Virus record (IMG/VR): IMGVR_UViG_3300009154_000010
Span: 1-39,756 of that record
Length of the DNA stretch: 39,756 bases
Strand: one strand, 5' to 3'
DNA from: a virus
Position 1 is the stretch's first letter. The number at the start of each line of letters is the position of its first letter. Made by a program: the position numbers and the translations under genes. Shown here one piece after another: positions 12,409-39,756 of the stretch. A model generated the notes under the pieces. It did no database searches, was not told the origin of the DNA, and was given only the letters and a program-made list of their open reading frames with translations.

Positions 12409-12655
12409 CAGCCTGCTTTGCTCAGTTTAAACGCATGCTCGCATTGCATGCTGGCAGTGCAGCGCTAGGGCAGGGCAGGACTAGGCGCTGGCTTGGCGCT
12501 GACTCGCTCGGCGCATCAATAGCGCCCCGACCTAGCAATCGCAGCAGCAATCGCAGCGCATGTTTAAACTGGTTGAACTTTCAACTACTTTCCAGTGGCT
12601 CAGCCTGCATGCGTGGCATCTCACTATGTGAGATTCTCAGGATTGGCTTCATAAG

Positions 12656-12876
12656 TTACTCGCTGGTAACTCTCTAAAGTCAGTTGTTTAATATCACTTT
12701 AGAGCATCGCAACATTTCAACATCGCTAAAGTCAGCCAAAATCAATGGTTTTAGAGCCTTACTCGCCAGTAACTTATTTTTTTACACCCACCGCAGCATC
12801 ATCAATCGGAGGCAATCGCATCAACATCAACATCGGCAAAGTGCCCTAAAGTCAGTATAAATCAATGGTTTTAGAG
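12656..12876. repeat. Three 31-bp repeats and two 16-bp palindromes, possible iterons or operators
   Basis: The 31-bp elements are at 12674-12704, 12726-12756 and 12846-12876. All begin CTAAAGTCAG and end TTTAGAG or TTAGAG. The second and third share AAATCAATGGTTTTAGAG exactly and lie exactly 120 bp apart. In the first copy the arms CTCTAAAGT and ACTTTAGAG form a perfect 9-bp inverted repeat. Two related palindromes, TTACTCGCTGGTAACT (12656-12671) and TTACTCGCCAGTAACT (12759-12774), are interleaved with them. Repeated spaced palindromes between divergent units suggest an origin or a set of regulator sites. Confidence 0.6.
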
Positions 12877-12956
12877 GGTGCTTGTAATTTTTTTAAATCT
12901 CGTTTACCTTTATCCCAGTGGAACAATCCACTACCGACTGGAAAGGTTTAAACATC

Positions 12957-13484
12957 ATGAGAAATCGTGAACAATGGCTTGCAGCGTTTGCTACTGCTGC
13001 TCGCCGACCAATCGCATCATCAATCCAAGGTGGAGGTGACGAGGAGGCAGCAATCCGCCTATCTTGTGGCTTCCCTCCAAAAGTGGGTCGCAAGGCTTCC
13101 ACTGCTGCAATCGTGCCACCAACCGCATCTCAGGACTTCACTGCCGAGATTTTCGTGGCTCCTACCGTTGACTCATCATCCGAGGTTGCCAAGGCAATCC
13201 TCCCACTGCTCCGCATCGCTCAATCAGGCAACTGGCGCTCAGCAGCGCCAAGCGTTGCCAAGCCACTGGACACGCTCCCAGTGTGGGCTGAATCAATCAT
13301 CCTCACACTCGGCGAGTATCCACACGCCAAAATTGAAATTGCGCCAGCAATCAAGCAAACAACTCGCCTCATCAAGGTTGCGTGTTTAAACGACAACTAC
13401 ATCGCACGAGTATCTCGCTCAACTCTTGAGAATCTCGGCGCTCCAATCTGCCCAGCATGCAATCAATCACTCGTGGAGGCTTAA
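12957..13484 (+). CDS. SprT-like family protein lacking the HExxH metalloprotease motif, 175 aa
   Basis: The order IRLSCGFP (residues 33-40), TAEIFVAPTVDSSSEVAKAIL (62-82), a LGEYPHAKIE segment (118-127) and a C-terminal Zn-ribbon-like end match a family of putative phage metallopeptidases. Its members read RVSCGWPS, EIFISP, VLxHELVHAAVG, LGxYPHA and CPECGYIAR. Here the HELVH position reads ILPLLRIAQSG, so the zinc-protease motif is gone. The ribbon keeps Cys143, Cys165 and Cys168 but has lost the fourth cysteine (CLNDNYIAR). The start at 12957 follows GGAAAGG; GTTTAAAC fills the spacer between that site and the ATG. It is the first gene of the early operon. It is probably non-catalytic, perhaps a binding or regulatory relic. 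Confidence 0.7.
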   Translation: MRNREQWLAAFATAARRPIASSIQGGGDEEAAIRLSCGFPPKVGRKASTAAIVPPTASQDFTAEIFVAPTVDSSSEVAKAILPLLRIAQSGNWRSAAPSVAKPLDTLPVWAESIILTLGEYPHAKIEIAPAIKQTTRLIKVACLNDNYIARVSRSTLENLGAPICPACNQSLVEA

Positions 13485-13486
13485 TC

Positions 13487-14230
13487 ATGACTACTTTCGG
13501 ACTAGAGTTTGAGGTCGCTGGACTCTCAACATCAGCAGCATCAGCAGCGCTCAATCGTGGCGGAATCGCTTGCGAGGAGCCACGCAATCAGCACATCGTC
13601 AACGAGAAGTGGACATCGGTCTATGACGGCTCAGTTCGTGGAGCCGAGGTCGTGTCACCAATCCTTGACCCAATCCGTTTAAACGAGGCTTCAACCGTTG
13701 CTCGCTTGCTCCTCGGAGCAGGTGGCAAGGTTGACCGCACAACTGGCTTCCATGTCCACATCGGAGCAGCAGAATTGACCCACGAGCACATCGCCCAGTG
13801 GTACATCAACTGGAATCTGCACCATGATGCAATCGGTGTGCTCGTTGCGCCAAGCCGTTTAAACAACCGTTTCTGCTCAGCGCTTGACCAAGCAGCAACC
13901 AATCGCAACGCCGAAAGAATCCGCAACGGCAACATCTCGGACTTCAACGGTGACCGCTACCACTCTTTCAATCTCCAATCCTTCCAACGCCATGGCACGC
14001 TGGAAATCCGCCTACATCAAGGCACACTTAACGGAGCAAAAGCCGTTGCGTGGGCAAAGTTCATTGATGCGTTTAAACAACTCAGCGAGAGCCGAATCAT
14101 CGGTGACCTCGGCACTGGCACCAACCTCCAAAAGTGCGAGAATCTCCTAGACCTGCTCCGCATCAACGGAAATCTTGACGAGCGCACCGCCAACTATCTC
14201 AAAGACCGAGCAGCATCCCTCAACGGATAG
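13487..14230 (+). CDS. Amidoligase family enzyme (glutamine synthetase-like fold), 247 aa
   Basis: Amidoligases of this class use ATP to join a carboxylate to an amine, forming an amide or peptide-like bond. Visible family features are GLEFEV at residues 5-10, DGS at 47-49, EVVSP at 54-58, GFHVHIG at 87-93 and TLEIRLHQGTL at 171-181. Together these give the acidic and His residues expected of the metal/ATP site of the GS fold. GGAGG precedes the ATG at 13487, two bases after the previous stop. A stand-alone glutamine amidotransferase follows 400 bp downstream and could supply ammonia or a glutamyl group. The substrate is unknown. Three GTTTAAAC copies lie within the gene. Confidence 0.8.
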   Translation: MTTFGLEFEVAGLSTSAASAALNRGGIACEEPRNQHIVNEKWTSVYDGSVRGAEVVSPILDPIRLNEASTVARLLLGAGGKVDRTTGFHVHIGAAELTHEHIAQWYINWNLHHDAIGVLVAPSRLNNRFCSALDQAATNRNAERIRNGNISDFNGDRYHSFNLQSFQRHGTLEIRLHQGTLNGAKAVAWAKFIDAFKQLSESRIIGDLGTGTNLQKCENLLDLLRINGNLDERTANYLKDRAASLNG

Positions 14231-14239
14231 CAGCAGGCA

Positions 14240-14284
14240 GCCTGCCCCAAGTGGGTAAGCGAGGGAGCGTTACCCTCGGCAGGC
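14240..14284 (+). other. Two-stem RNA hairpin in the gap after the amidoligase gene
   Basis: GCCTGCC (14240-14246) pairs with GGCAGGC (14278-14284), and inside it GGGTAA (14253-14258) pairs with TTACCC (14270-14275). No T-tract follows, so it is not a standard terminator. It lies between the amidoligase and a tiny membrane-protein gene and may stabilise, process or attenuate the transcript. Confidence 0.5.
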
Positions 14285-14336
14285 ACAAACGGAATCGGGA
14301 AATCCTCGGTACCGTTTAAACGAAAGGACTGGAATC

Positions 14337-14450
14337 ATGAACAGCATCAACTACTGGTCAATCATTGATGGTCGTGTGCTTCTACTGCTGGCAATCATTG
14401 CTGGCGTGTGGGTTCATTACCTACTGACAGGTAACAATCATGGCGAATAA
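14337..14450 (+). CDS. Small single-pass membrane protein, 37 aa
   Basis: The reading frame begins MNSINYWSIIDGR and continues with a hydrophobic stretch (VLLLLAIIAGVWVHYLL, residues 14-30), so it should span the membrane once with a short polar tail. AAAGGACTGGAATC precedes the ATG, a reasonable ribosome-binding site. It overlaps the next gene by 11 nt. No family is recognised. Small early membrane proteins in phages often alter host envelope or division functions, but nothing here shows that. Confidence 0.55.
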   Translation: MNSINYWSIIDGRVLLLLAIIAGVWVHYLLTGNNHGE

Positions 14451-14616
14451 TAACAAAAAGTTATACATCGTTGAAGGTGTAGATTTCTATGGGCGAAAGT
14501 TCACTGGACTATACACAGAAACAGAGGCTCGGTACCTCGCAGCCACTGACCGTTTAAACACAGTGTATGACCGCACAACACAGGTTGTGGTACACTTCAC
14601 TCAACAGACCAACTAA
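14440..14616 (+). CDS. Hypothetical protein, 58 aa
   Basis: The protein starts MANNNKKLYIVEGVDFYGRKFTGLY and reads as a small alternating beta-strand domain (LYIVEGVD, VVVHFTQQTN). It begins inside the preceding gene and ends 28 bp before the glutamine amidotransferase. One GTTTAAAC at 14552 is read as Leu-Asn. No family is recognised. Confidence 0.6.
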   Translation: MANNNKKLYIVEGVDFYGRKFTGLYTETEARYLAATDRLNTVYDRTTQVVVHFTQQTN

Positions 14617-14644
14617 CAACTAACACAGACTGGAGAAATAAATT

Positions 14645-15451
14645 ATGTGTGGAATCGCAGGCTTCTGCCTTAACCCAAAGCACAACAACAATCAGGTTGA
14701 CCTTGCATCGCAGATGCTCATGGACATTGAACATCGTGGCTATCACGCCACAGGTGCAGCATGGATTAACCCAAAGACTGGGCATCGTGTAATCACCAAA
14801 GCGCCAGTGGCTGCAACCAAGTTCATCACGACAGATGCAGGCAAGCGAATCTGTTTAAACGCACAGACCGCTATCTTGCACACTCGTTGGGCAACTCAAG
14901 GTGACCCAAAGGTTAACGACAACAACCACCCAATCCCTCGTGGCAAGATTGTGTTGACACACAACGGACACATCAGCAACGATGACCAACTGTTTAAACA
15001 ACTCAAGGTCAAGCGCCATGGTCAGGTAGATAGCGAGGCAGTCGCAGCACTGATTGCATTTACATCAGCGCCCATTGCCGAGGTGCTCTCTCGTGTACAA
15101 GGCACTGCTGCCTTGGCTTGGATTGAACAGAACAAGGGCAACACATTGCACCTTGCTCGTATTAACTCATCGCCATTGTGGATTGGTCAGACCAAGACAG
15201 GCTCGCTCGTCTATGGTTCAACCGAGGACACCATTGAGAACGCATCTATCATGCTTGATTCAGTGCTTGACTGGGCATACGCAGCAGCCGAGGGTGAATA
15301 CTTCAAGGTTAAAGACGGCAAGATTGTGGAGCATCAGAACTTCACACCGTTTAAACAAGTGTATGCCAACAACTGGCGCAAGTATTCTTCTAGTAACTGG
15401 GATGATGAGCACGAGTACGCATCTAGTTATTACGACAAGCACCTGTTCTAA
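14645..15451 (+). CDS. Stand-alone class II glutamine amidotransferase, 268 aa
   Basis: Class II glutaminase domains release ammonia from glutamine with an N-terminal cysteine. The protein begins MCGIAGF, so Cys2 becomes the nucleophile after Met removal. HRGYHATG at 30-37, LHTRWATQGD and THNGHISND match the glutamine-binding and oxyanion motifs (compare HRGxDxxG, RWAT and HNG in GlmS/PurF-type enzymes). No synthetase, isomerase or transferase domain follows, so it probably works with a partner. The amidoligase upstream in the same operon is the obvious candidate. GGAGAAATAAATT precedes the start, and a strong terminator lies 40 bp after the stop. Confidence 0.85.
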   Translation: MCGIAGFCLNPKHNNNQVDLASQMLMDIEHRGYHATGAAWINPKTGHRVITKAPVAATKFITTDAGKRICLNAQTAILHTRWATQGDPKVNDNNHPIPRGKIVLTHNGHISNDDQLFKQLKVKRHGQVDSEAVAALIAFTSAPIAEVLSRVQGTAALAWIEQNKGNTLHLARINSSPLWIGQTKTGSLVYGSTEDTIENASIMLDSVLDWAYAAAEGEYFKVKDGKIVEHQNFTPFKQVYANNWRKYSSSNWDDEHEYASSYYDKHLF

Positions 15452-15490
15452 GTTTCGGTTGGTCGCGCACCTGCATCATCCGATAAAGAT

Positions 15491-15520
15491 AGCCCCCGCT
15501 TCGGCGGGGGTTTTTCTTTT
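15491..15520 (+). terminator. Strong intrinsic terminator
   Basis: CCCCCGC (15493-15499), a TTCG tetraloop and GCGGGGG (15504-15510) are followed by TTTTTCTTTT. This closes the transcript that carries the amidoligase and amidotransferase genes. Confidence 0.92.
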
Positions 15521-15886
15521 ATCCATCATACTAATTCCAGGTACATCTGGAAAGTGTTAACTGTTTAAACAACAAAAACAAATCTTCCCTGGGACTCTGG
15601 AATACACAAGCGTTTAAACAATGGTGGTGGGTCTGGTGGTGGTGGTGGTGGTGGTGGGTCTGGCACTCACAGCACCAGACTGCTAACGACATGCGTTTAA
15701 ACAGTAGGTTTGCATGTCATGATAGGATGGTTTTATCCACCTCAAGGTGGATAAAACTAAAGAAACATGCAGTCTTGTTTAAACAAAAAAACTTTTTTAA
15801 ATCTGCATGTAAATCCTTGACTTATGCATACCGAACTGGAATCCTAGGACATGTAGCAACTCGGCTACATAGAACAAAGGACTGGT
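15521..15886. promoter_or_regulatory. 366-bp intergenic control region with four GTTTAAAC copies
   Basis: No convincing gene. Between the terminator and the next operon lie GTTTAAAC copies at 15563, 15612, 15695 and 15777, and a (GGT)n tract at about 15622-15658. There is a perfect 12-bp inverted repeat at 15730-15757 and a 7-bp hairpin ATGTAGC/GCTACAT (15851-15870). TTGACT at 15817-15822 is a plausible -35 box, with AATCCT after 17 bases as a weak -10. The region probably holds the promoter and operators of the second early operon. The 21-codon frame in the GGT tract is discussed separately. Confidence 0.6.
15730..15757. repeat. Perfect 12-bp inverted repeat with TCAA loop
   Basis: The left arm is G plus TTTTATCCACC (15730-15741), the loop TCAA (15742-15745), and the right arm is its exact complement (15746-15757). 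No T-run follows beyond the arm itself, so an operator, or a terminator using the arm's own T-rich 3' end on either strand, are both possible. Confidence 0.65.
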
Positions 15887-16063
15887 ATGTATCTAACAAC
15901 AGGCGACATCATCGCCACAATCATCGCCCTATTGGGTGCGCTCACAGTGGTGGGCTTAGCAATTAAAGAAAACATCCGACTCAACGGTGAGAACGCATGG
16001 CTACGCCACCGCAATCGCCAACTCAATAAGGTGGTGGAAGCACATGACCTCAGCAACTTCTAA
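15887..16063 (+). CDS. Small membrane protein with polar tail, 58 aa
   Basis: The frame reads MYLTTGDII followed by a hydrophobic stretch to about residue 26 (ATIIALLGALTVVGLAI), then a charged helical tail (RLNGENAWLRHRNRQLNKVV). One membrane span with a cytoplasmic coiled segment is likely. AAAGGACTGGT precedes the ATG. It overlaps the following gene by 20 nt and opens the second early operon. No family is recognised; a spanin, holin or signalling role cannot be decided. Confidence 0.65.
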   Translation: MYLTTGDIIATIIALLGALTVVGLAIKENIRLNGENAWLRHRNRQLNKVVEAHDLSNF

Positions 16064-16304
16064 GACATACGAGGGTTGGAAAAACTACAACACATGGAAC
16101 ATTGCGCTATGGATTAACAACGACTATCCGTTATACCTAAGCGCCTGCCTATTCATGAAAGATTACAAAGGCGCAAAGCCTTATCGTGATTGGCTCAAGG
16201 TTACAGGGCTTGAGGATAAAGCAACCATTGACGGATGCAAGTACAACTCAAGCGACCTTGCATACGCCGAACTCAACGACATGATGAAAGGACTGGTGCT
16301 CTAA
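16044..16304 (+). CDS. Conserved actinophage-type small protein, 86 aa
   Basis: The start is placed at the ATG at 16044, so the protein begins MTSATSKTYEGWKNYNTWNI. The motif GWKNYNTWNIALWINND is typical of a widespread family of small phage proteins of unknown function (GWxNYxTWNVALWIxND). The remainder is an alpha-helical domain (YRDWLKVTGLEDKATIDG, then SDLAYAELNDMMKG). The stop overlaps the next start as TAATG, so the two are translationally coupled. Confidence 0.75.
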   Translation: MTSATSKTYEGWKNYNTWNIALWINNDYPLYLSACLFMKDYKGAKPYRDWLKVTGLEDKATIDGCKYNSSDLAYAELNDMMKGLVL

Positions 16305-16429
16305 TGAAATGCAGTTTCTGTGGCGCAACTAATGTAAAACTTGATGCCATAAATTATGGTGGCAAACTCGTCATGCGATGCATCACATGTAAGGTTCTTG
16401 ACGGAGTAAAAGGAGATAACAATGATTGA
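16304..16429 (+). CDS. Zinc-ribbon miniprotein, 41 aa
   Basis: Two CxxC knuckles (CSFC at residues 3-6, CITC at 26-29) flank a short beta hairpin, the minimal pattern of a zinc ribbon. The start overlaps the previous stop as TAATG and its end overlaps the next gene by 8 nt. It could bind nucleic acid or a host RNA polymerase subunit, as several phage zinc ribbons do, but no partner is shown. Confidence 0.7.
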   Translation: MKCSFCGATNVKLDAINYGGKLVMRCITCKVLDGVKGDNND

Positions 16430-16619
16430 TGAAACGAAACCAATAGATAGAATCGTGTGGCGTTGTGATGTAACAGATAAGATGCTGACCCATTTAAACG
16501 ATGAGGAACGCAGAACATTTATCAATCGCCTTAGCGATGCAGTAAACCAACTCGGTCAACTATACAAAGTGGGCAGAGAATATGAGAACGGCAAACTAAA
16601 GGAGAATAACTATGCCTAA
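16422..16619 (+). CDS. Hypothetical protein, 65 aa
   Basis: A small charged helical protein (residues 24-50 read HLNDEERRTFINRLSDAVNQ and onward). AAAGGAGATAACA precedes the ATG, a strong ribosome-binding site. It overlaps both neighbours by 8 nt within a tightly packed early operon. The gene contains a one-mismatch form of the iterated palindrome (ATTTAAAC). No family is recognised. Confidence 0.7.
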   Translation: MIDETKPIDRIVWRCDVTDKMLTHLNDEERRTFINRLSDAVNQLGQLYKVGREYENGKLKENNYA

Positions 16620-16974
16620 AGGTGCAGTGCTATACACAGATGGAACATACGAGGAGAAAGAGTTTAAACAACTCTCCGATATGCAAGCAGCAGTGGATGG
16701 ATTGATTGAACCCATCGGCATGCATGATTACTATGGTGCTGGCGTATGCCAAGGCTATGTAAACGAGGAGGGATTGCTCAAACAACTACCTCTCAACTCG
16801 GTAGCCAGTGCGCTCTCGTTCATGTTCGGTAACGCACCTACGATTGTGGGCAACATGATTGTCTTGGGCTTAACCGATAGCCATGGCAATGACACTGACA
16901 TCCCTGCTGACATACTTACTTTCATTAGCCGAGTGTGTGGTAACCGTGCGAAACTGGAGGCTGAGTATGTTTAA
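16612..16974 (+). CDS. DUF3846-like protein, 120 aa
   Basis: The pattern of an N-terminal strand pair (AVLYTDGTYEEKEF), a helix with AAVDGLIEPI, then YVNEEGLLKQLPLNSVAS and PTIVGNMIVLGLTD resembles DUF3846. That domain is common in phages and plasmids of Actinobacteria (conserved GGxIE, NEEGK, LPxN and IVG motifs). Function is unknown. Its GTTTAA end forms part of a GTTTAAAC site that also encodes the start of the next gene, giving an 8-nt overlap. Confidence 0.75.
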   Translation: MPKGAVLYTDGTYEEKEFKQLSDMQAAVDGLIEPIGMHDYYGAGVCQGYVNEEGLLKQLPLNSVASALSFMFGNAPTIVGNMIVLGLTDSHGNDTDIPADILTFISRVCGNRAKLEAEYV

Positions 16975-17404
16975 ACGCATCCACCCGCATGCCCGACTGT
17001 GGATGGCAACAACTCTTGTACTCGGAATCTTTCTCGTGTTTAATCCACGAGTGCAGATGGTTGCACATCCACCGCAAGGTACTCTCATTGCTTACTATCA
17101 CAACGACTACCAACGCTTCGCAGTGGAGCAACTAATCAAGCAAGATAAGATTGAACAGTACCCATGCCTCTATGAATTGTGGATGCGTGAGTCAAACTGG
17201 CGACCACAATCACACAACAATCGTGGTGGCGCACATGGAATCGCACAACTCAAACCTGAAACATGGAAACTTATCGGCATACATCAAACCGATGATGGAT
17301 ATACACAGGTAATTGCTGGGCTACGCTACATAGACAGGCACTACGGCAAGACTGGTGGTATCTGCAAGGCATACGCTCATCACTTAGCAGTGGGGTGGTA
17401 TTAA
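16967..17404 (+). CDS. Membrane-anchored lysozyme/transglycosylase-like protein, 145 aa
   Basis: Residues 11-25 (LWMATTLVLGIFLVF) form a signal anchor after a basic start (MFKRIHPHAR). The rest matches the lytic-transglycosylase/Rpf-like fold: LWMRESNW with probable catalytic Glu75, AHGIAQLKPETW at 89-100, GLRYIDRHYG at 118-127 and a VGWY end. The start at 16967 was chosen for its signal sequence; an upstream in-frame ATG at 16883 lies inside the previous gene. Peptidoglycan cleavage at the outer face of the membrane is predicted. Its place in an early operon, away from the lysis genes, suggests wall remodelling or superinfection control rather than final lysis. Confidence 0.75.
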   Translation: MFKRIHPHARLWMATTLVLGIFLVFNPRVQMVAHPPQGTLIAYYHNDYQRFAVEQLIKQDKIEQYPCLYELWMRESNWRPQSHNNRGGAHGIAQLKPETWKLIGIHQTDDGYTQVIAGLRYIDRHYGKTGGICKAYAHHLAVGWY

Positions 17405-17748
17405 TGGAAATTAAACACCACAAAGTTATAGAAAAGCGAGAGGTTCGCAACCGAGGTAAGGATGTGCAAGCGTTTAAACTACGGTGGAATCGTAGGCTTA
17501 CCGAGGAGGCTGCATGTAAGGGGTTAGATGTTGAATTGTTTTACCCTGACAAAGACATCTTTACCCCCGATGAGGAAAAGGTATTCGCTCGCATGTGTGT
17601 GGAGTGTCCAGTCATGGAGATGTGCCTAGAGTGGGGGCTAGTCCATGAACGCAGTGGCGTATGGGGTGGAACTACCCCATTTCGTAGGCACGCAGCAAGA
17701 AAAGCCCTCAACTTGCAGGTGTCTGACCCACGAGGCATGAACATGTGA
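17404..17748 (+). CDS. whiB: WhiB-family iron-sulfur transcription regulator, 114 aa
   Basis: WhiB proteins bind a 4Fe-4S cluster and the main sigma factor and occur in Actinobacteria and their phages. The four cysteines are Cys38, then Cys65-x2-Cys68-x5-Cys74 (CVECPVMEMC), followed by the turn GVWGG at 85-89 and a basic segment (FRRHAARK). The ATG at 17404 overlaps the previous stop as TAATG; a GTG three codons upstream is less likely. It ends the rightward early operon. It probably redirects host transcription and is the best single indicator of an actinobacterial host. Confidence 0.92.
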   Translation: MEIKHHKVIEKREVRNRGKDVQAFKLRWNRRLTEEAACKGLDVELFYPDKDIFTPDEEKVFARMCVECPVMEMCLEWGLVHERSGVWGGTTPFRRHAARKALNLQVSDPRGMNM

Positions 17749-17810
17749 TAGGTTGTATTCATTGGGCATCTCCTATGTGAAGGGGAAGCATGTAGTAGGT
17801 GCCCATACAA

Positions 17811-17848
17811 AAGCCCCCTTGCGGATTCCAGTCTTTGCGAGGGGGCTT
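17811..17848. terminator. Bidirectional terminator between convergent early operons
   Basis: AAGCCCCCTTGC (17811-17822) pairs with GCGAGGGGGCTT (17837-17848) with one G.T wobble and a 14-nt loop. Short T-runs follow on both strands. It sits between the WhiB gene and the converging dNMP kinase gene. A further inverted repeat, TGGGCA/TGCCCA (17763-17805), lies just upstream. Confidence 0.8.
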
Positions 17849-17855
17849 CTGTATT

Positions 17856-18386
17856 TTACAAACTTAATTGTTTAGCAAGCATAAACACTTCATCAGACAA
17901 ATCATCAAGCGTGCCATCGTTATAGATAACATGTTTAAACATAAAGTTATCCATCGCATGTTCGCTCTTGTGTCCATTAACTGGTGGATGATTGTGTCTG
18001 TTTACACGCCACACTTGACCGCCATACTGCATGATTTCATTAGCCTCATTAGGGAAACGAACATCAGCAAATACAATCTTGGTTGATTCCATTTTATCAA
18101 AGGCTTGTTGCACCCAAAAGTTATCACCAAATTGCTTGCGACCCACATCAGTACCAAAGACTTGAAGTAATCTGCGTACCTCAGGGTTAGCCTTGGCTAC
18201 ATCCCATCCATACTCATCAACTAAATCAGCAACACGATTGCCACCTTCAACAAAAGGATTCAATGTATAGATTGCATCACGCATCGGGTCAGCAAATGCC
18301 ATCCGTGTATAGCCATAGTTTAAACACAACAGTTCAGCAACTGTGTCTTTACCTGACTGTGCATACCCACTCAAACCAATAATCAT
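17856..18386 (-). CDS. Deoxynucleoside monophosphate kinase, 176 aa
   Basis: The P-loop GYAQSGKDT is at residues 7-15, after a hydrophobic strand (MIIGLS). FADPMRDAIYTLNP and VFADVRFPNEANEI match the phage dNMP kinase family (T4 gp1-like and actinophage enzymes). It phosphorylates dNMPs to feed phage DNA synthesis. Its ATG overlaps the previous stop as ATGA. It is the last gene of the leftward replication operon, ending at a bidirectional terminator. Confidence 0.9.
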   Translation of the reverse strand: MIIGLSGYAQSGKDTVAELLCLNYGYTRMAFADPMRDAIYTLNPFVEGGNRVADLVDEYGWDVAKANPEVRRLLQVFGTDVGRKQFGDNFWVQQAFDKMESTKIVFADVRFPNEANEIMQYGGQVWRVNRHNHPPVNGHKSEHAMDNFMFKHVIYNDGTLDDLSDEVFMLAKQLSL

Positions 18387-18544
18387 TTCTTTATGTATCC
18401 AATCTGCTTGCGTTTAAACCACACTATCTTATCTCCAGCCAGGTAAATGTAATAACCTATGTCGTTTAAACAGATGCCTACATAATACAACGGCAGTCCC
18501 AACCAGTTCCATGGTTTCATGCGTTGGTATTTAGGTCTAATCAT
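18383..18544 (-). CDS. Small membrane-associated protein, 53 aa
   Basis: The protein begins MIRPKYQRMKPWNWLGLPLYY, with an aromatic, hydrophobic middle (LYYVGICLNDIGYYIYLAG) between basic ends. It may lie in or across the membrane. An ATG further upstream in frame (18592) lies inside the sigma-like gene; 18544 gives an 8-nt overlap like other pairs here. Two GTTTAAAC copies (18412, 18464) lie within 60 bp. No family is recognised. Confidence 0.6.
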   Translation of the reverse strand: MIRPKYQRMKPWNWLGLPLYYVGICLNDIGYYIYLAGDKIVWFKRKQIGYIKK

Positions 18545-19187
18545 TATCGGGTTTCCTGTATCTACGATTGTTCCATTGAGGTTGTTCTCCACCTAGCCTG
18601 TCTTGCAACTTGGTAAGCGCACGACTAACACGCTTACGCAAAGCCTCCTCACTCACGGAGTATTCAATGGCAAGCGCATCAAAGTCTGTGCCACCGCCAT
18701 CAAATCTGCGTTGAAGAAGAAGATTATCTTGTTCGTTTAAACGCTTAAGCGCACCGCTAACATCAGACAACATAGCCTCACGATTCATGCCCTCGCTTGG
18801 CTTGCTTGATTTACTAATGAACTCATCACCTTTAGGTGTTGCGCTCTCTACCCACTGGTCATAGCGCCACACATCTTTAAGCAACTCTTGTAGTACCTCG
18901 TGTGTGTAATAGAAAGCATCTGATGGTGATGACTTACTCTTGTATGCACGCTCACGAGCAGCAAACTTCTGTGACTCATTGTTAAATGTGCGCCGAAGTT
19001 TAAACACTAATGAGTCTTGTTCCTCCCACTCCTCAATTTTGTGCCAGTGTTCTACTGCCCACAGAAGTAAGTGTTGGTACACATCATCAACGGACACAAG
19101 ATTGCGATGGATGCGAGCGCATCGTGTTGCACTGTAGCGTGCCACTTTGTATACGCTTTCCCATAACGGTGCGTTATTCATGTCCAT
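18537..19187 (-). CDS. Sigma-factor-like protein, 216 aa
   Basis: Residues 33-58 (VDDVYQHLLLWAVEHW and onward) resemble sigma region 2. Residues 150-196 form a region-4-like HTH (LNEQDNLLLQRRF, DFDALAIEYSVSEEALRKRV). The C-terminus has a basic tail. This is the layout of short ECF-like or sigma-K-like factors in actinophages. It probably steers host RNA polymerase to phage promoters, perhaps with WhiB. Its start overlaps the upstream gene by 14 nt; ATG at 19181 is an alternative. One GTTTAAAC codes Phe-Lys, another Leu-Asn. Confidence 0.75.
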   Translation of the reverse strand: MDMNNAPLWESVYKVARYSATRCARIHRNLVSVDDVYQHLLLWAVEHWHKIEEWEEQDSLVFKLRRTFNNESQKFAARERAYKSKSSPSDAFYYTHEVLQELLKDVWRYDQWVESATPKGDEFISKSSKPSEGMNREAMLSDVSGALKRLNEQDNLLLQRRFDGGGTDFDALAIEYSVSEEALRKRVSRALTKLQDRLGGEQPQWNNRRYRKPDND

Positions 19188-19569
19188 GTTTAAGTTCCTT
19201 CATTGTTGTTAGTAAGTCCTCAATCGTAATTAAAAAACCTTTACTCCAGTTCGGTGGTATCTCGCAAGTAATCTCTCTGCCAAACTCCCTGATTGCATAA
19301 TGCACATGGTCTGTTGGCACCATGACAACGCCACGCTCAAGGACAAACGCCCAATACTCGGCAGTAGTAACCATCAAACCCGATGGCTCCCACGATTTAC
19401 TCTTGTTAAACCAACACTCAACTTCTATGTAAATGTTGTTCGTATTCCACCACTTACGGTCACGCTTGACCTCAATAGTCTTGCCTTCTGTTAGTAAATC
19501 CTCAACTAATTGTTCGCCCTTACGACCATAGCCAAAGTCCAAATCAAATGATGAGTTCTTTACCATCAT
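19174..19569 (-). CDS. PD-(D/E)xK nuclease-like protein, 131 aa
   Basis: A helix with GRKGEQLVEDLL (Glu19, Glu23) precedes TIEVKRDRKWW (Glu33-x-Lys35) and IYIEVEC (Glu49). This is the strand order and acid/Lys spacing of the restriction-endonuclease fold. The protein is too small for an added specificity domain. Its ATG follows the primase stop directly; that stop is itself part of a GTTTAAAC at 19570. Likely roles are trimming or resolving DNA, or attack on host DNA. Confidence 0.65.
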   Translation of the reverse strand: MMVKNSSFDLDFGYGRKGEQLVEDLLTEGKTIEVKRDRKWWNTNNIYIEVECWFNKSKSWEPSGLMVTTAEYWAFVLERGVVMVPTDHVHYAIREFGREITCEIPPNWSKGFLITIEDLLTTMKELKHGHE

Positions 19570-19571
19570 GT

Positions 19572-20189
19572 TTAAACGCCCGCCCTCTTACGCAAACCAT
19601 CTGCGCCTTCCATTAGGTAGACATCGTTAACATCCTGACCCTCAGGCATGAACACAGGGAATACATTGTCTAGTTCTCTACTTAAATGTTTAGCCATCTC
19701 ACGCCCTGCGTTGTCACCATCGCACAGCAAGATAACCTTTGACCAATCAGCAAGCACACGAGAATAAAAAGATTTCCAGTTGTTAGCCCCAGGCAAACCA
19801 ACCGCACTGAACCCTGCTTGTGTAGCAACAACAGTATCAAGTTCACCTTCACAGATAGCAAGCACTTCGGAGTCATCACCCAGTGCGCCGATGTTAAAGA
19901 TGTGTGTCGTAGCCCCTGGTCTACTCATGTATTTCGGACCTGTATCTGCGTTTAAACTACGGAAGCGGATGTCAATGACTCCTGTTGGTGTGATGTATGG
20001 GATTGCTAACTTGCCAGTGTAAGGCTCGTGTCCAATCTCAGGCTCTCTTACGAAGCCGAGGCGAAATGTACGAGCGGTCTGTTCTGTGATACCTCTGCTC
20101 GTCAGGTACGGAAGTATCTCCGCTAGGTTTCTTTCGTAGTTCTCCGTTGCTCTCGCCAGTAATTCTTTCTGCGATTTGCTTAGCCTCAT
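19572..20189 (-). CDS. DnaG-like primase, TOPRIM catalytic half, 205 aa
   Basis: The TOPRIM motifs are clear: AICEGELDTV with Glu115, then ILLCDGDNAGREMAKHL with Asp157 and Asp159. The N-terminal part (YLTSRGITEQTARTF, LAIPYITPTGVIDIRFR, GPKYM) is the usual region before TOPRIM. There is no zinc domain; that is encoded by the overlapping upstream gene in another frame. The ATG at 20189 (or a TTG at 20198) lies 150 nt before the upstream stop. It makes RNA primers for phage DNA replication. A frameshifted fusion with the zinc half is possible. Confidence 0.88.
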   Translation of the reverse strand: MRLSKSQKELLARATENYERNLAEILPYLTSRGITEQTARTFRLGFVREPEIGHEPYTGKLAIPYITPTGVIDIRFRSLNADTGPKYMSRPGATTHIFNIGALGDDSEVLAICEGELDTVVATQAGFSAVGLPGANNWKSFYSRVLADWSKVILLCDGDNAGREMAKHLSRELDNVFPVFMPEGQDVNDVYLMEGADGLRKRAGV

Positions 20190-20415
20190 TAAACCCAACT
20201 CCTTCTCGTTTCATAATAAGTGAATACACATCACCAGCCATCTCACAACCAAAGCAACGGAAGCCACCGTTGTCTATGTTTAAACGGGCTGACTTAACTC
20301 TATCACCATGGAAAGCGCAGCGCAGTGTGAACCAGCCACGCCTACCATGTGGTATCTTAAATCCATAGTGCTCAAGAACTTTAACGATGTCATGTTTAGA
20401 GTTTTGCAAGGACAT
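20038..20415 (-). CDS. Primase zinc-binding half (CHC2-like), 125 aa
   Basis: CAFHGD (Cys33-x2-His36) and FRCFGCEMAGD (Cys54-x2-Cys57) form the CHC2 zinc finger of DnaG primases, followed by the conserved helix (NEAKQIAERI). After residue about 88 the sequence turns into an Arg/Ser/Pro-rich tail (ELRKKPSGDTSVPDEQRYH). That tail is the out-of-frame reading of the start of the TOPRIM gene, so it may be unstructured or bypassed by frameshifting. The start overlaps the resolvase end by 20 nt. Confidence 0.85.
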   Translation of the reverse strand: MSLQNSKHDIVKVLEHYGFKIPHGRRGWFTLRCAFHGDRVKSARLNIDNGGFRCFGCEMAGDVYSLIMKREGVGFNEAKQIAERITGESNGELRKKPSGDTSVPDEQRYHRTDRSYISPRLRKRA

Positions 20416-20761
20416 CACCCAGTCGTTGAACTACATAGGCATCCTCAATTCCTTTGTTAGATGCCTTGATAATTACCAATGGTGTTGGTGTTACCTTCAT
20501 GTTCTTAGACTTACGATAGTTCTCTGCTTCAACATACGCTTCACGCAACCAACCCGACAGGTCAACCTTGCCGTCACGCCTTGGTGCCTTGGCTTCAACC
20601 ACATAGATGTCGTTGGTTGCTGGTAGAAATACATCACCAATGTCATTGCGACCAGCACGAGGTAAGCGTTGTGCGTTTAAACCCTGTTGCATAAACCAAT
20701 CAGCAAGGTCAATCTCAAATGCTGCACCTCTACGCTTGTTACTCTGCTGTTGCGTTGCCAT
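20396..20761 (-). CDS. Holliday-junction resolvase-like nuclease, 121 aa
   Basis: Hjc-type PD-(D/E)xK signature: RRGAAFEIDLADWF with Glu16, RLPRAGRNDIGDVFLP with Asp43, and YVVEAKAP with Glu57-x-Lys59. It cleaves branched DNA during phage recombination or before packaging. I set the start at 20761, where AAAGGAG precedes the ATG; a longer frame upstream lies inside the glycosyltransferase gene. It overlaps genes on both sides. Confidence 0.82.
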   Translation of the reverse strand: MATQQQSNKRRGAAFEIDLADWFMQQGLNAQRLPRAGRNDIGDVFLPATNDIYVVEAKAPRRDGKVDLSGWLREAYVEAENYRKSKNMKVTPTPLVIIKASNKGIEDAYVVQRLGDVLAKL

Positions 20762-21485
20762 TGGCTTGCTCCTTTGTCTGTCTTTCTGCTGCTTGGGCAG
20801 CCTGCCAGTACAGTGCATAGTAGTTATCGTCATAGGCAAAGCGCTTCATGTGTTTAACACGAGCACCTGTATGTGCATAAACATCAACGCCTGCCTTCTT
20901 AAGATTGCGGAAGAACACAATGTCCTCGCCAACAAACTTATCTCCAATGTTTTCTTGTTCGGCAAACACTGAATAGTCAGGGGATAAAGCACGCAACTTA
21001 GGCACAACGCTGCGATGCATGAGTGTTAAACCCAAGCCAGCGCAGTCAACCTTAATGACTTCACTTGCTGGTAGTGGGTGAACATAACGGATACTAAACT
21101 CCTCGCCTGTTTCATTAAACAAAGCAGGCATAGGTTGCATTAGTGATGACTCCATCTGTTTAGAGATAAAGTAAACGCCACTAACAACTGGCTTGGTGTT
21201 CTTGTCTGCTATTTTCCATAGCATCTCAAGCACATCAACGGTTAACACAATGTCTGAGTCAACCCATAACAACCAATCTGTTTTAACTTGGTCATACCAC
21301 ATGTCTAGTAACGCTTGGCGTTGTCTGCCAATCTGATTACCTTGCACACGGATAGCATTGTTGACTGCCAATTTGCGAGTAGGCGCAGTGATGGTGGTAT
21401 ACATAATGCCTTCGGCAAACTTGCCATCAACCATACCGTTGTCACACCAACCAATAGATAATGTTTCGTTAGAACTGTGACTCAC
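20739..21485 (-). CDS. GT-A glycosyltransferase-like protein, about 248 aa
   Basis: WLLWVDSDIVL carries a DxD motif (Asp76, Asp78 from the GTG start), the metal/nucleotide-sugar site of GT-A transferases. FVGEDIVFFRNLKKAGVDVY matches the later acceptor-side motif, and the end is Ala/Glu-rich. GGGAG before a GTG at 21485 suggests that start; an ATG at 21506 is an alternative. Phages use such enzymes to glycosylate DNA bases, virion proteins or host surface polymers; which of these cannot be told. It lies among replication genes, which slightly favours DNA or regulation. Confidence 0.75.
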   Translation of the reverse strand: MSHSSNETLSIGWCDNGMVDGKFAEGIMYTTITAPTRKLAVNNAIRVQGNQIGRQRQALLDMWYDQVKTDWLLWVDSDIVLTVDVLEMLWKIADKNTKPVVSGVYFISKQMESSLMQPMPALFNETGEEFSIRYVHPLPASEVIKVDCAGLGLTLMHRSVVPKLRALSPDYSVFAEQENIGDKFVGEDIVFFRNLKKAGVDVYAHTGARVKHMKRFAYDDNYYALYWQAAQAAERQTKEQANGNATAE

Positions 21486-21834
21486 TAATCTCCCTTTCCG
21501 ATTCATCAAGAACTTGGAGAGCGTTCTCTCCCATTTGTTTAAACGAGTTAGACATGTTAGCCAACTGTTCTGCTATCTCTTTGGTGCACTCAAACCCATG
21601 GTCATCGTTTAAATGTTCTGCTAACTGTGTTACATAGTCAGCAAACTGCATTGACTCTAACCAAATCTGATGTGGGTCATAAATCTTTTTAGCGACATCC
21701 TCCATCCGTTCAAGGACTTGTGGTATCTCCGATTTCAGTGCTTCCTTTATCTCCATTGGCAGGTTCAGTTTCTGTACCATCTGTTCCATCTGTTGGGGTG
21801 AGATTGATAGTGCCAGTCCTAATGTATTCGTCAT
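21469..21834 (-). CDS. Hypothetical helical protein, 121 aa
   Basis: The protein starts MTNTLGLALSISPQQMEQM and is almost wholly helical and charged, with long amphipathic segments (EIKEALKSEIPQVLERMED; EIAEQLANMSNSF). The start is placed at 21834. This leaves a 125-nt out-of-frame overlap with the preceding gene; a longer frame from 21903 would overlap even more. No family is recognised. Its place between the ATPase and the glycosyltransferase suggests a replication accessory role. Confidence 0.6.
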   Translation of the reverse strand: MTNTLGLALSISPQQMEQMVQKLNLPMEIKEALKSEIPQVLERMEDVAKKIYDPHQIWLESMQFADYVTQLAEHLNDDHGFECTKEIAEQLANMSNSFKQMGENALQVLDESEREISESQF

Positions 21835-30550: not shown

Positions 30551-32332
30551 TTAGAGTGCGCCCATGAGATTGAGCGTTTGATAATCTTTAATACTTCCAA
30601 AAGCACCAGATGCTGATAAAGTAATATCGCCACTGGCTGTTACTGTTCCAGTTAATGTTGGTGCTGTTAGCGTTAGACCAGCAACTGTTGAAACCGTTGT
30701 TCCAGATGGAAGAATTGTTGAACCAAGGGTAGGTGCAGAGTAAGTGCTAGATGAAGATATTGCACTCCATGCTGAGCCAGTCCATGCATACATGGTGTTG
30801 GTAGCAGAGTTCCAATATGTGGCACCAGTAATAAGAGCATTGCCTAAGTTATCTACTGTAGGAGCAGATGACTTAGAACCAAGGTAACGCTGGTCATAGT
30901 TAGTATATGTAGTAGCAGCACTTGTAGCAGAAGTAGCAGCACTTGTAGCGGATGTTGCTGCAGATGCCGCACTTGTTGATGCTGCTGTCTGTGAAGTCAA
31001 AGCAGAAGCAGCGCTTGTTGCAGCAGCAGTTTGTGATGTTAATGCAGATGATGCTGAAGTAGCAGCCGAAGTAGCAGATGTTGCTGCTGCAGTTGCACTT
31101 GTTGCTGCGCTTGTTGCACTTGTAGCAGCAGCCGTTGCACTTGCTGCTGCAGCAGTTTGAGATGCAGATGCAGATGTAGCCGAAGTTGCTGCGCTTGTAG
31201 CGCTAGTTGCAGCAGCAGCAGCAGATGCTGATGCTGTAGTTGAATACCCAGCAATAGTTGCAACTGAATTAGCAGCAGAAGTAGCACTGGCAGCAGCAGA
31301 AGTTGCTGATGTTGCTGCAGATGTAGCAGAAGTTGCAGCAGCAGTGGCTGATGCAGCAGCGCTAGTAGCACTGGTAGCAGCAGCGGTTTGAGATGTAAGA
31401 GCAGAGGCTGCACTTGTGGCTGCAGCAGTTACGCTTGCGCCCATTGTGCTTGCAGAAGTAGCAGCACTAGCAGCAGAGGTAGCAGCAGCCGTTGCAGATG
31501 CTGCAGCAGATGTTGCACTGGTAGCAGCAGCAGAAGCAGAAGAAGCAGCAGTCGCTGCAGAAGCAGCAGCAGCGGTTGCAGATGCTGCAGCACTGGTGGC
31601 GCTAGTAGCAGCAGCGGTTGCACTTGCTGCAGCAGATGTTGCAGAAGTAGCAGCGCTTGTTGCTGATGTAGCAGCAGCGGTTTGGCTTGCAGTCTGTAAA
31701 ACAAGGATTGCATCTACATAAGATTTAGGTGTAGCAGATGATGTAGACATGCCAGCAGATGAAAGACCAGTGATAACTGGGCTACCTGAAATAGTAGGGC
31801 TAGTAATGGTTGGGCTTGCAAAGGTAGCAGCACTAGCAGTAAATGAACCAGTAAAAGTACCAGCGCTATAAGTTTTATTAGTAAGGGTTTGAGCCTTGGC
31901 TGTACCAACTATGTCACCTTCACCAGTGGCAATACCGTGAACATGTGTATCTACACCTGAAAGGATTGCTGAATCTGTATCATAACCACGAGCAGAGATG
32001 TGAGTCTGTAGTTCCTTAAACTCACGAGCAGATACGCCGTGGCGTACTGCGGTACCAGCAGCATGAGCAAAGGCAGTTGTGTTATCTTGTCCACGAGTAA
32101 TTACAATAGTAGTAGATGAACCCGATGTAACCGTTACTACTTCTTCTTTAGAAGTATCTGGGTCAAGAATAAGTGTGTATGGAAAAGTGGTTGGGAAACC
32201 GCTGATTGAGTTAAGAAGAACTCCAGTGGTTGTATCTCCCTGTGCTGCTGCTGCGATAGATGCAAGTAGTTTTGTTTCAATCGCTGTTGCGGAGTAGTTC
32301 CGCTTTCTAGTACCTGGGTCGCCTGCTGCCAT
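30551..32332 (-). CDS. Tail fibre with long Ala/Ser/Thr repeat shaft, 593 aa
   Basis: The N-terminal 70 residues include EEVVTVTSGSSTTIVITRG and HGVSAREFKELQTHI, typical of virion attachment segments. A beta-rich stretch (TSPTISGSPVITG) follows. Residues about 215-458 are an almost pure Ala/Ser/Thr region repeating units such as ATSATSAA and ALTSQTAA, probably a long alpha-helical coiled-coil shaft. The C-terminus (GATYWNSATNTMYAWTGSAW) is a small beta tip common in fibres. The repeat DNA gives long shadow frames on other strands, which are not genes. Confidence 0.8.
   Translation of the reverse strand: MAAGDPGTRKRNYSATAIETKLLASIAAAAQGDTTTGVLLNSISGFPTTFPYTLILDPDTSKEEVVTVTSGSSTTIVITRGQDNTTAFAHAAGTAVRHGVSAREFKELQTHISARGYDTDSAILSGVDTHVHGIATGEGDIVGTAKAQTLTNKTYSAGTFTGSFTASAATFASPTITSPTISGSPVITGLSSAGMSTSSATPKSYVDAILVLQTASQTAAATSATSAATSATSAAASATAAATSATSAAASATAAAASAATAASSASAAATSATSAAASATAAATSAASAATSASTMGASVTAAATSAASALTSQTAAATSATSAAASATAAATSATSAATSATSAAASATSAANSVATIAGYSTTASASAAAAATSATSAATSATSASASQTAAAASATAAATSATSAATSATAAATSATSAATSASSALTSQTAAATSAASALTSQTAASTSAASAATSATSAATSATSAATTYTNYDQRYLGSKSSAPTVDNLGNALITGATYWNSATNTMYAWTGSAWSAISSSSTYSAPTLGSTILPSGTTVSTVAGLTLTAPTLTGTVTASGDITLSASGAFGSIKDYQTLNLMGAL
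30957..31690 (-). repeat. Imperfect short-period repeats encoding the fibre shaft
   Basis: The DNA consists of GCAGCAGC, GTAGCAGAAG and TTGCAGATGC-like words in tandem, on a period of 9 to 21 bases. The codon-level repetition makes this segment prone to length change by slippage. Copy number may differ among related phages and may be wrong in short-read assembly. Confidence 0.75.
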
Positions 32333-38899: not shown

Positions 38900-39756
38900 T
38901 ATGCCACCATCCCAAACTTCTGTAGAATTGAATACGCATACTTGTCGTATTGGTCATTAGCGTTCTTTGTATACTGCCAACGCTCATCGCCACGAATCAT
39001 CTTGTCTGCTTCCCACAATGGGCGAGCAACAATTTTGCTTGGGTCTTTAGGGTCAACTGATTGAAAAATCTTTCCATCTTTAAACAATGGGTCATCCCAT
39101 TTAATAGTGTCAGGGTCAACCTCAAGTAAATCTGCAGCCTTCTGACGGTAGTTAGATGTTAAATCCCAAAGGCTTACGCCAGCGTTAATCTGGTCAGCAA
39201 AAACACCATACTTAGTAGCAGTGTTCTTACGAATTTCAGCCTTAATATCATCTTCGGTGGAACGAACACGCACACCATTTTTATCTACTAAACCAACAAG
39301 GCGTTGTGTGTAATTAGTTCTATCTCCAGCAGAAACAGTAACTCCCATTGTGTTGGCATAATCTGCAACATTTTGAACTTGTGCTGAATAAAGTCCACCT
39401 TTAATTTTTTTAACAATATCAGGGTTGCTTGTAATAACACCTTCAATTTGTGTTGTTGTCCAACCATGAAGGTAAGCATTTTCACCTAAAGCAGAAAGAT
39501 AATTAGATACCGATGGGTCAGATGCATCAAGCCCAAGGTCTGTGGCAACCTTGGATGCCGATAAGCGAAATTCATTAACGCCTTCACGGTATGCGTTTTC
39601 GCCACCTTTAACACGGTCAATAAGTTTTTGAGCAACTGTTGGTCCGTTTAAACGATACCAGTCAGTGTCGTTAATCATTTGAGCAATTATGTCTGCTGTA
39701 TATTTAAATGAACCATCGGGCTTGCGAACACTTTGGTAAAGAGCATTTAATTCAGG
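38899..39756 (-). CDS. C-terminal part of the 307-aa virion protein spanning the window ends
   Basis: The frame is open from the window end to the stop at 38899. It continues the ATG at position 189 across the repeat. A Met at 39678 (MINDTDWYRLNGP) is internal once the ends are joined. The protein is helical and mostly charged (AQKLIDRVKGGENAY, DPSVSNYLSALGENAY), with a W/D-rich end. The stop overlaps the start of the LysM gene. No family is recognised; it lies in the ejection-protein cluster. Confidence 0.85.
   Translation of the reverse strand, partial: PELNALYQSVRKPDGSFKYTADIIAQMINDTDWYRLNGPTVAQKLIDRVKGGENAYREGVNEFRLSASKVATDLGLDASDPSVSNYLSALGENAYLHGWTTTQIEGVITSNPDIVKKIKGGLYSAQVQNVADYANTMGVTVSAGDRTNYTQRLVGLVDKNGVRVRSTEDDIKAEIRKNTATKYGVFADQINAGVSLWDLTSNYRQKAADLLEVDPDTIKWDDPLFKDGKIFQSVDPKDPSKIVARPLWEADKMIRGDERWQYTKNANDQYDKYAYSILQKFGMVA
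39634..39756. repeat. Right copy of 123-bp terminal direct repeat
   Basis: Identical to positions 1-123. It includes GTTTAAAC at 39646, the same site as at 13, so one copy should be dropped when counting features on the circular unit. Confidence 0.95.

Follow-up and report, generated by a model that had tools for sequence, protein, structure and literature searches.

In the parts of the published descriptions consulted here, the LUZ24-like phage UFV-P2 has genes for COOH-NH2_lig, Amidoligase_2, a glutamine amidotransferase, an ATP-grasp protein and AIG2/GGCT clustered together (PMC3890496), and the RIO-1-like phages carry a seven-gene 'peptidoglycan modification cassette', which is kept in phiEco32, 7-11, LUZ24, PaP3 and others and in which the glutaminase and GGCT are counted among the degradation genes (PMC5498523). 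The OM43 phages MEP401 and MEP402, together with more than 30 metagenomic relatives, combine PF12224 with PF13522, and their authors take up again the idea on superinfection put forward by Iyer et al. 2009 (PMC10580990); for the Arthrobacter phages of cluster AL, an AIG2-like protein and an amidoligase are named (PMC5513430). The same parts of these papers report no experimental function for the UFV-P2, RIO-1-like, OM43 or Arthrobacter AL cassettes, and no product of a phage amidoligase cassette was found in the sections of the literature consulted here.

The gene pair described in this work represents the phiEco32/LUZ24/RIO-1 amidoligase cassette in a form with two genes, so the system is not new. 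It is found on a viral record of 39,756 bases, the whole of which was analysed and is called the window below; an identical 123-bp direct repeat at both ends (1-123 and 39634-39756) makes it probable that this record is the entire genome of a phage. The features of the locus are collected in Table 1. The two small ORFs between the amidoligase and the glutaminase, both on the plus strand, have no Pfam match. The initial annotation had placed the two enzymes in one operon closed by a strong terminator: the shared strand and the single downstream hairpin, with a 9-bp stem containing 7 G-C pairs, a loop of 4 and a TTTCTTTTAT tail, support this arrangement, whereas a promoter-like match (10/12) lies inside the unit, between the two genes at 14424-14451, in a scan that returned 9 such matches vs 5.6 expected by chance. 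A GGT-rich low-complexity tract is present at 15625-15665, just past the terminator region.

Table 1. Features of the amidoligase-glutaminase locus, in window coordinates
Feature	Coordinates	Strand	Basis or remark
188-aa protein, zinc-ribbon-like C-terminal domain	12918..13484	+	stop 2 bp before amidoligase
Amidoligase_2 (PF12224), GS-fold carboxylate-amine ligase, 247 aa	13487..14230	+	Pfam, fold, conserved residues
Small ORF, 37 aa, hydrophobic stretch	14337..14450	+	present in close relatives only
Small ORF, 58 aa	14440..14616	+	relatives in part of loci only
Free-standing class II glutamine amidotransferase (glutaminase), 268 aa	14645..15451	+	GATase_6, GlmS 1xff, invariant residues
Intrinsic-terminator-like hairpin, T tail	15491..15512	+	directly 3' of glutaminase stop

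The first enzyme matches the Pfam family PF12224, Amidoligase_2, with an E-value of 2.8e-21 and 77 bits vs a cut-off of 22, and a PHROG annotated as 'amidoligase enzyme' (E 1.8e-30); its relatives use the ATG at 13487 as start and not the in-frame ATG at 13457. Its AlphaFold model has a pLDDT of 91.5 and finds as top fold match YbdK (Z 14.4 over 213 residues, rmsd 3.3), followed by glutamine synthetases at Z about 12-13.4, including the M. tuberculosis enzyme (Z 13.4, 209 residues, rmsd 3.7), by plant glutamate-cysteine ligase (Z 12.8) and by Dop (Z 12.4; E 2.9e-4 in a second fold comparison). The GS fold assigned to this protein in the initial annotation is thus confirmed by the family score and by the model. 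Comparison of the sequence with solved structures gave no link, the best hit being an unrelated protein at E 0.094, and profile comparison with E. coli GshA (hhalign) was not significant (E 0.23). Residues G5, E7, E9, W42, E54, H89 and H91 are invariant among 14 diverse members, and D47, R124, N162, E173 and R175 are kept in at least 90% of them; the 21 aligned amidoligases from the lineage and from Arthrobacter phages keep both sets, as well as R157. In E. coli GshA we take E27/E29, D60/E67 and E328/R330 to be the metal- and ATP-binding residues, and these residues were confirmed to be present in its sequence; the viral E7-x-E9, D47-x6-E54 and E173-x-R175 have the same spacing. The putative metal/ATP-site residues are therefore kept, and the fold and these residues together suggest that the enzyme is ATP-dependent.

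The second enzyme was proposed to be a class II glutaminase devoid of a synthetase domain, and the searches bear this out: it matches GATase_6 (E 3.3e-21, Pfam) and a PHROG for 'glutamine amidotransferase' (E 3.7e-48), the solved structure closest to it in sequence is the glutaminase domain of GlmS (1xff, E 2.4e-20), and no synthetase domain was found in it. Among NCBIfam profiles GlmS scores 77 bits, PurF 44, AsnB 43 and EgtC 23 (E 3.5e-5). The structural model is weak, with a pLDDT of 61 and a tail of low confidence at residues 240-268; GlmS is still the first fold match, and EgtC (4zfk) is in the list at E 3e-6. C2, R81, N107, G108 and D129 are invariant in 18 diverse cassette members and align with the glutaminase site of GlmS, where C2 is presumably the nucleophile and the others glutamine-binding residues. 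Judged from their residues, both active sites of the pair look intact. No recognisable synthetase domain was detected in any of the 10 cassette glutaminases scanned, so a partner acting in trans is to be expected. Acquisition of a bacterial GlmS by the phage was also considered and discarded, since the sequence ends after its glutaminase domain, without the isomerase domain.

The locus shares with the phiEco32-, LUZ24- and RIO-1-like cassettes an Amidoligase_2 protein and a class II glutaminase on one strand, but it differs in having neither GGCT nor COOH-NH2_lig, and its glutaminase is short, 268 aa vs 392-846 aa in the eight long cassette glutaminases scanned. GGCT (PF06094) and COOH-NH2_lig (PF14395) were searched in 26 records, ten of the lineage (the window and nine others) and 16 others. 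Neither was found in the ten lineage records; GGCT is present in 12 of the 16 other phage records, among them three of the five amidoligase-only ones of the first set, and COOH-NH2_lig in seven of the 16, once below the cut-off. Since GGCT is missing from the window and from all nine further lineage records, the pair is a reduced relative and not a full cassette. The closest annotated relatives are the Arthrobacter phages of Laroyevirus/cluster AL type (Edmundo gp97/gp98) and Ottawa/Kharcho, in which the amidoligase directly precedes the glutaminase; Edmundo and window proteins are 33% identical for the amidoligase and 38% for the glutaminase. In the Arthrobacter phages GGCT lies just upstream of the pair, while in the window lineage a zinc-ribbon protein occupies that place. 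The OM43 phages have the same PF12224 and PF13522 pair, as far as the consulted parts of their description show, but belong to a different phage group.

IMG/VR scans yielded 192 loci of one phage lineage, many of which overlap on the same contig. Both genes are present in 175 of these overlapping loci, corresponding to 104 distinct DNA pairs, and in all 175 the amidoligase is upstream, on the same strand and 213-1280 bp away. The 17 unpaired loci are all cut by a contig end: 15 contain the glutaminase only, with 1-534 bp left upstream of the gene, and two the amidoligase only, with 82 and 437 bp left downstream. Thus the co-occurrence and adjacency that the initial annotation proposed to check in related phages hold throughout the lineage, where the two genes are strictly co-inherited. 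No Rosetta-stone fusion of the two proteins was found among the 175 paired loci. Since all 192 loci represent one lineage, adjacency among them is not independent.

Evidence beyond the lineage comes from 25 other phage records, a non-random sample picked from the matches of both queries. Both families occur in 16 of them, and one more has an amidoligase with a sub-threshold glutaminase match; the pair is seen in unrelated phages of Arthrobacter, Pseudomonas (LUZ24), Proteus, Salmonella, Pseudoalteromonas, Vibrio and Alcaligenes and in spring-water phages, with differing gene orders. Six records have the amidoligase only (Porphyromonas, Bacillus, Geobacillus, Faecalibacterium, C75C1 and Christensenellales), and two, both unannotated, the glutaminase only (MT835749.1, L211, and MG065686.1, L212), in frames of 641 and 652 aa that have the size of a complete GlmS; these two 'phage' records are possibly bacterial contamination. 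Neither gene is therefore found alone as often as the pair, and no clear phage genome with a glutaminase and no amidoligase was seen among the records examined. Because the amidoligase stands alone in six of the 25 records, and the glutaminase alone only in GlmS-sized frames, the glutaminase is taken to depend on the amidoligase, and not vice versa.

In genome contigs, the lineage profile detected a single locus (L210), on a contig of a MAG described as gammaproteobacterial, where open frames place an amidoligase and a class II GAT 4 bp apart; this contig may possibly be phage DNA. PF12224 is present in 17 of 274 genomes of the class of this MAG, at 18 loci, and a class II GAT is nearby in just one of the 18 (L221, in the same genome as L210), the loci being short, 2.6-3.8 kb. 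Eight of the 18 were scanned as chromosomal amidoligase loci, and Peptidase C26 is the neighbour in seven of the eight; the neighbour scan at L227 gave no family match. These chromosomal pairs resemble the viral one in having a ligase of the same family and a GAT-related neighbour, but the neighbour has a class I fold and the amidoligase belongs to a distinct subfamily. The partner of the Amidoligase_2 family thus varies between class II GAT, GGCT and Peptidase C26.

Protein distances of the amidoligase and the glutaminase are correlated (Pearson 0.79, Spearman 0.57), though the correlation is no stronger than in other gene pairs from these phages, such as glutaminase and WhiB (Pearson 0.83) or zinc-ribbon protein and glutaminase (Spearman 0.71). 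For 126 pairs of relatives, similarity is above 80% in the glutaminase and below 55% in the amidoligase; for example, at six loci (L011-L015 and L019) the amidoligase is 44-45% identical to that of the window and the glutaminase 83-89%. From these identities, a divergent allele has taken the place of the amidoligase alone, the adjacent glutaminase having changed little; this favours a modular choice of substrate and mildly disfavours a tight complex.

A functional coupling of some kind between the two enzymes is very probable, and this part of the earlier proposal of a split ligase is well supported; that the ligase channels ammonia is just one of two good readings. The simplest is that of a split glutamine-dependent ligase with ammonia hand-over, which we prefer tentatively, at a little short of an even chance. 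We infer catalysis, ammonia hand-over, an acceptor and a benefit to the phage along these lines: the glutaminase, with Cys2 as nucleophile, would hydrolyse glutamine, the freed ammonia would be taken up in trans by the GS-fold enzyme, and this amidoligase would convert an ATP-activated carboxylate into its amide, the two proteins working like MurT/GatD. The acceptor would most plausibly be a peptide of the cell envelope or a small metabolite of gamma-glutamyl type that is altered in the course of infection; the peptide tag or protein target suggested initially found no support in the analysis. Ammonia hand-over is favoured because the glutaminase is nearer to the ammonia-delivering enzymes GlmS, PurF and AsnB than to the amidohydrolase EgtC, and the GS fold of the amidoligase counts in the same direction because the parent reaction of this fold uses ammonia. 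It is weakened by the six of 25 other phage records having the amidoligase but not this glutaminase and by the chromosomal amidoligases, which adjoin Peptidase C26 and not a class II glutaminase. Class II GAT, GGCT and Peptidase C26 can all act on a gamma-glutamyl C-N bond, and it is mainly because all three swapped partners fit this chemistry that ammonia hand-over is kept below an even chance. A tightly co-adapted complex is disfavoured by the unexceptional distance correlation together with the 126 discordant pairs.

The variable partners (C26 in 7/8 loci, GGCT in 3/5, or class II GAT), all from families of gamma-glutamyl chemistry, also sustain an alternative that is almost as good as ammonia hand-over, and that we consider a real if somewhat doubtful possibility: the amidoligase would link an amine to a gamma-glutamyl group, and the protein of class II GAT fold would later remove the glutamyl group, or free the amine, in a manner similar to EgtA and EgtC. 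In ergothioneine synthesis these two are a glutamate ligase and an amidohydrolase of class II GAT fold (PMC9103826), and a comparable action on gamma-glutamylmethylamide is ascribed to GMAS together with MgsA, a GlxB-type class II GAT, in the parts of the literature consulted. The window pair resembles EgtA/EgtC in combining a ligase with an enzyme of class II GAT fold, and EgtC is found in the fold list and as a weak family match; however, the window glutaminase is far nearer to GlmS than to EgtC, at 77 vs 23 bits and also by fold, and several cassettes hold GGCT and the glutaminase together, so that these are not simple alternatives. It is improbable that the pair is unlinked cargo, or that the glutaminase serves a host enzyme, the adjacency being derived from one ancestor: such an origin agrees with the single lineage behind the 192 loci and with the lack of special co-variation, but the same association recurs in unrelated phages with differing orders, and a glutaminase lacking the amidoligase was seen in no clear phage. 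A protein-tagging ligase of PafA/Dop type, with the glutaminase as accessory, is quite improbable, as Dop ranks below YbdK and level with many glutamine synthetases, no Pup-like protein was identified, and the small conserved zinc-ribbon protein encoded upstream, which could be the carrier, does not consistently end in Glu/Gln; the presence of Dop among the fold matches is the other point in its favour.

This zinc-ribbon protein is linked to the pair by position only. Its last ~45 residues are zinc-ribbon-like, C...C-P-x-C (KQTTRL...C...YIARxSR...GxPxCPxC), and in the window protein they are joined to a variable N-terminal part, while in some relatives (e.g. L175 and L187) the domain is a separate protein of ~55 aa directly before the amidoligase. 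The domain is found at a coverage of at least 80% in 133 loci; five members scanned have no Pfam match at the curated cut-off. It may resemble SprT-type zinc ribbons and LysW. That it could be a carrier or acceptor loaded by the amidoligase, with the glutaminase supplying nitrogen, in a three-part pathway analogous to that of LysW, is a highly unlikely reading; if true, an amidated or gamma-glutamyl product would be built on a protein carrier.

Other features of the window concern its host and gene content. A WhiB-like regulator (17395-17748, +) suggests an actinobacterial host, and a sigma-factor-like protein is encoded at 18537-19187 (-). A glycosyltransferase at 20739-21509 (-) matches PHROG 34859 (E 1.8e-121), of the class 'moron, auxiliary metabolic gene and host takeover', and the frame at 30551-32332 (-) codes for a long Ala/Ser/Thr repeat protein (SAATSATSAAASATAAATS...) that looks like a tail fibre. 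None of the PADLOC-DB families of known anti-phage defence systems matched the three proteins searched. A 7-deazaguanine (Gat-QueC) DNA modification pathway was considered and set aside, as no matching gene was found among the scanned subset of window ORFs.

The exact 8-bp palindrome GTTTAAAC is present in 44 copies in the window vs 0.86 expected, most densely at 12425-21544, with few one-mismatch variants and with flanks that are not shared. It occurs in all 192 lineage loci, at 0.76-4.4 copies per kb, whereas a check of 26 other loci found a single copy, and codon 117 of the glutaminase gene retains it in 108 of 114 distinct sequences. A binding, methylation or packaging signal is possible, and no similar repeat in a phage genome was found in the literature searched by title and abstract. 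This palindrome may be more surprising than the enzyme pair itself.

Amidoligase cassettes are found repeatedly in phages whose hosts are unrelated, and the swapping of partners beside one ligase family yields a sharp, testable pair of hypotheses. The locus of this lineage, with one ligase and one glutaminase, is among the smallest versions of the cassette, and it is therefore a handy system in which to test whether the glutaminase feeds the ligase or undoes its work.
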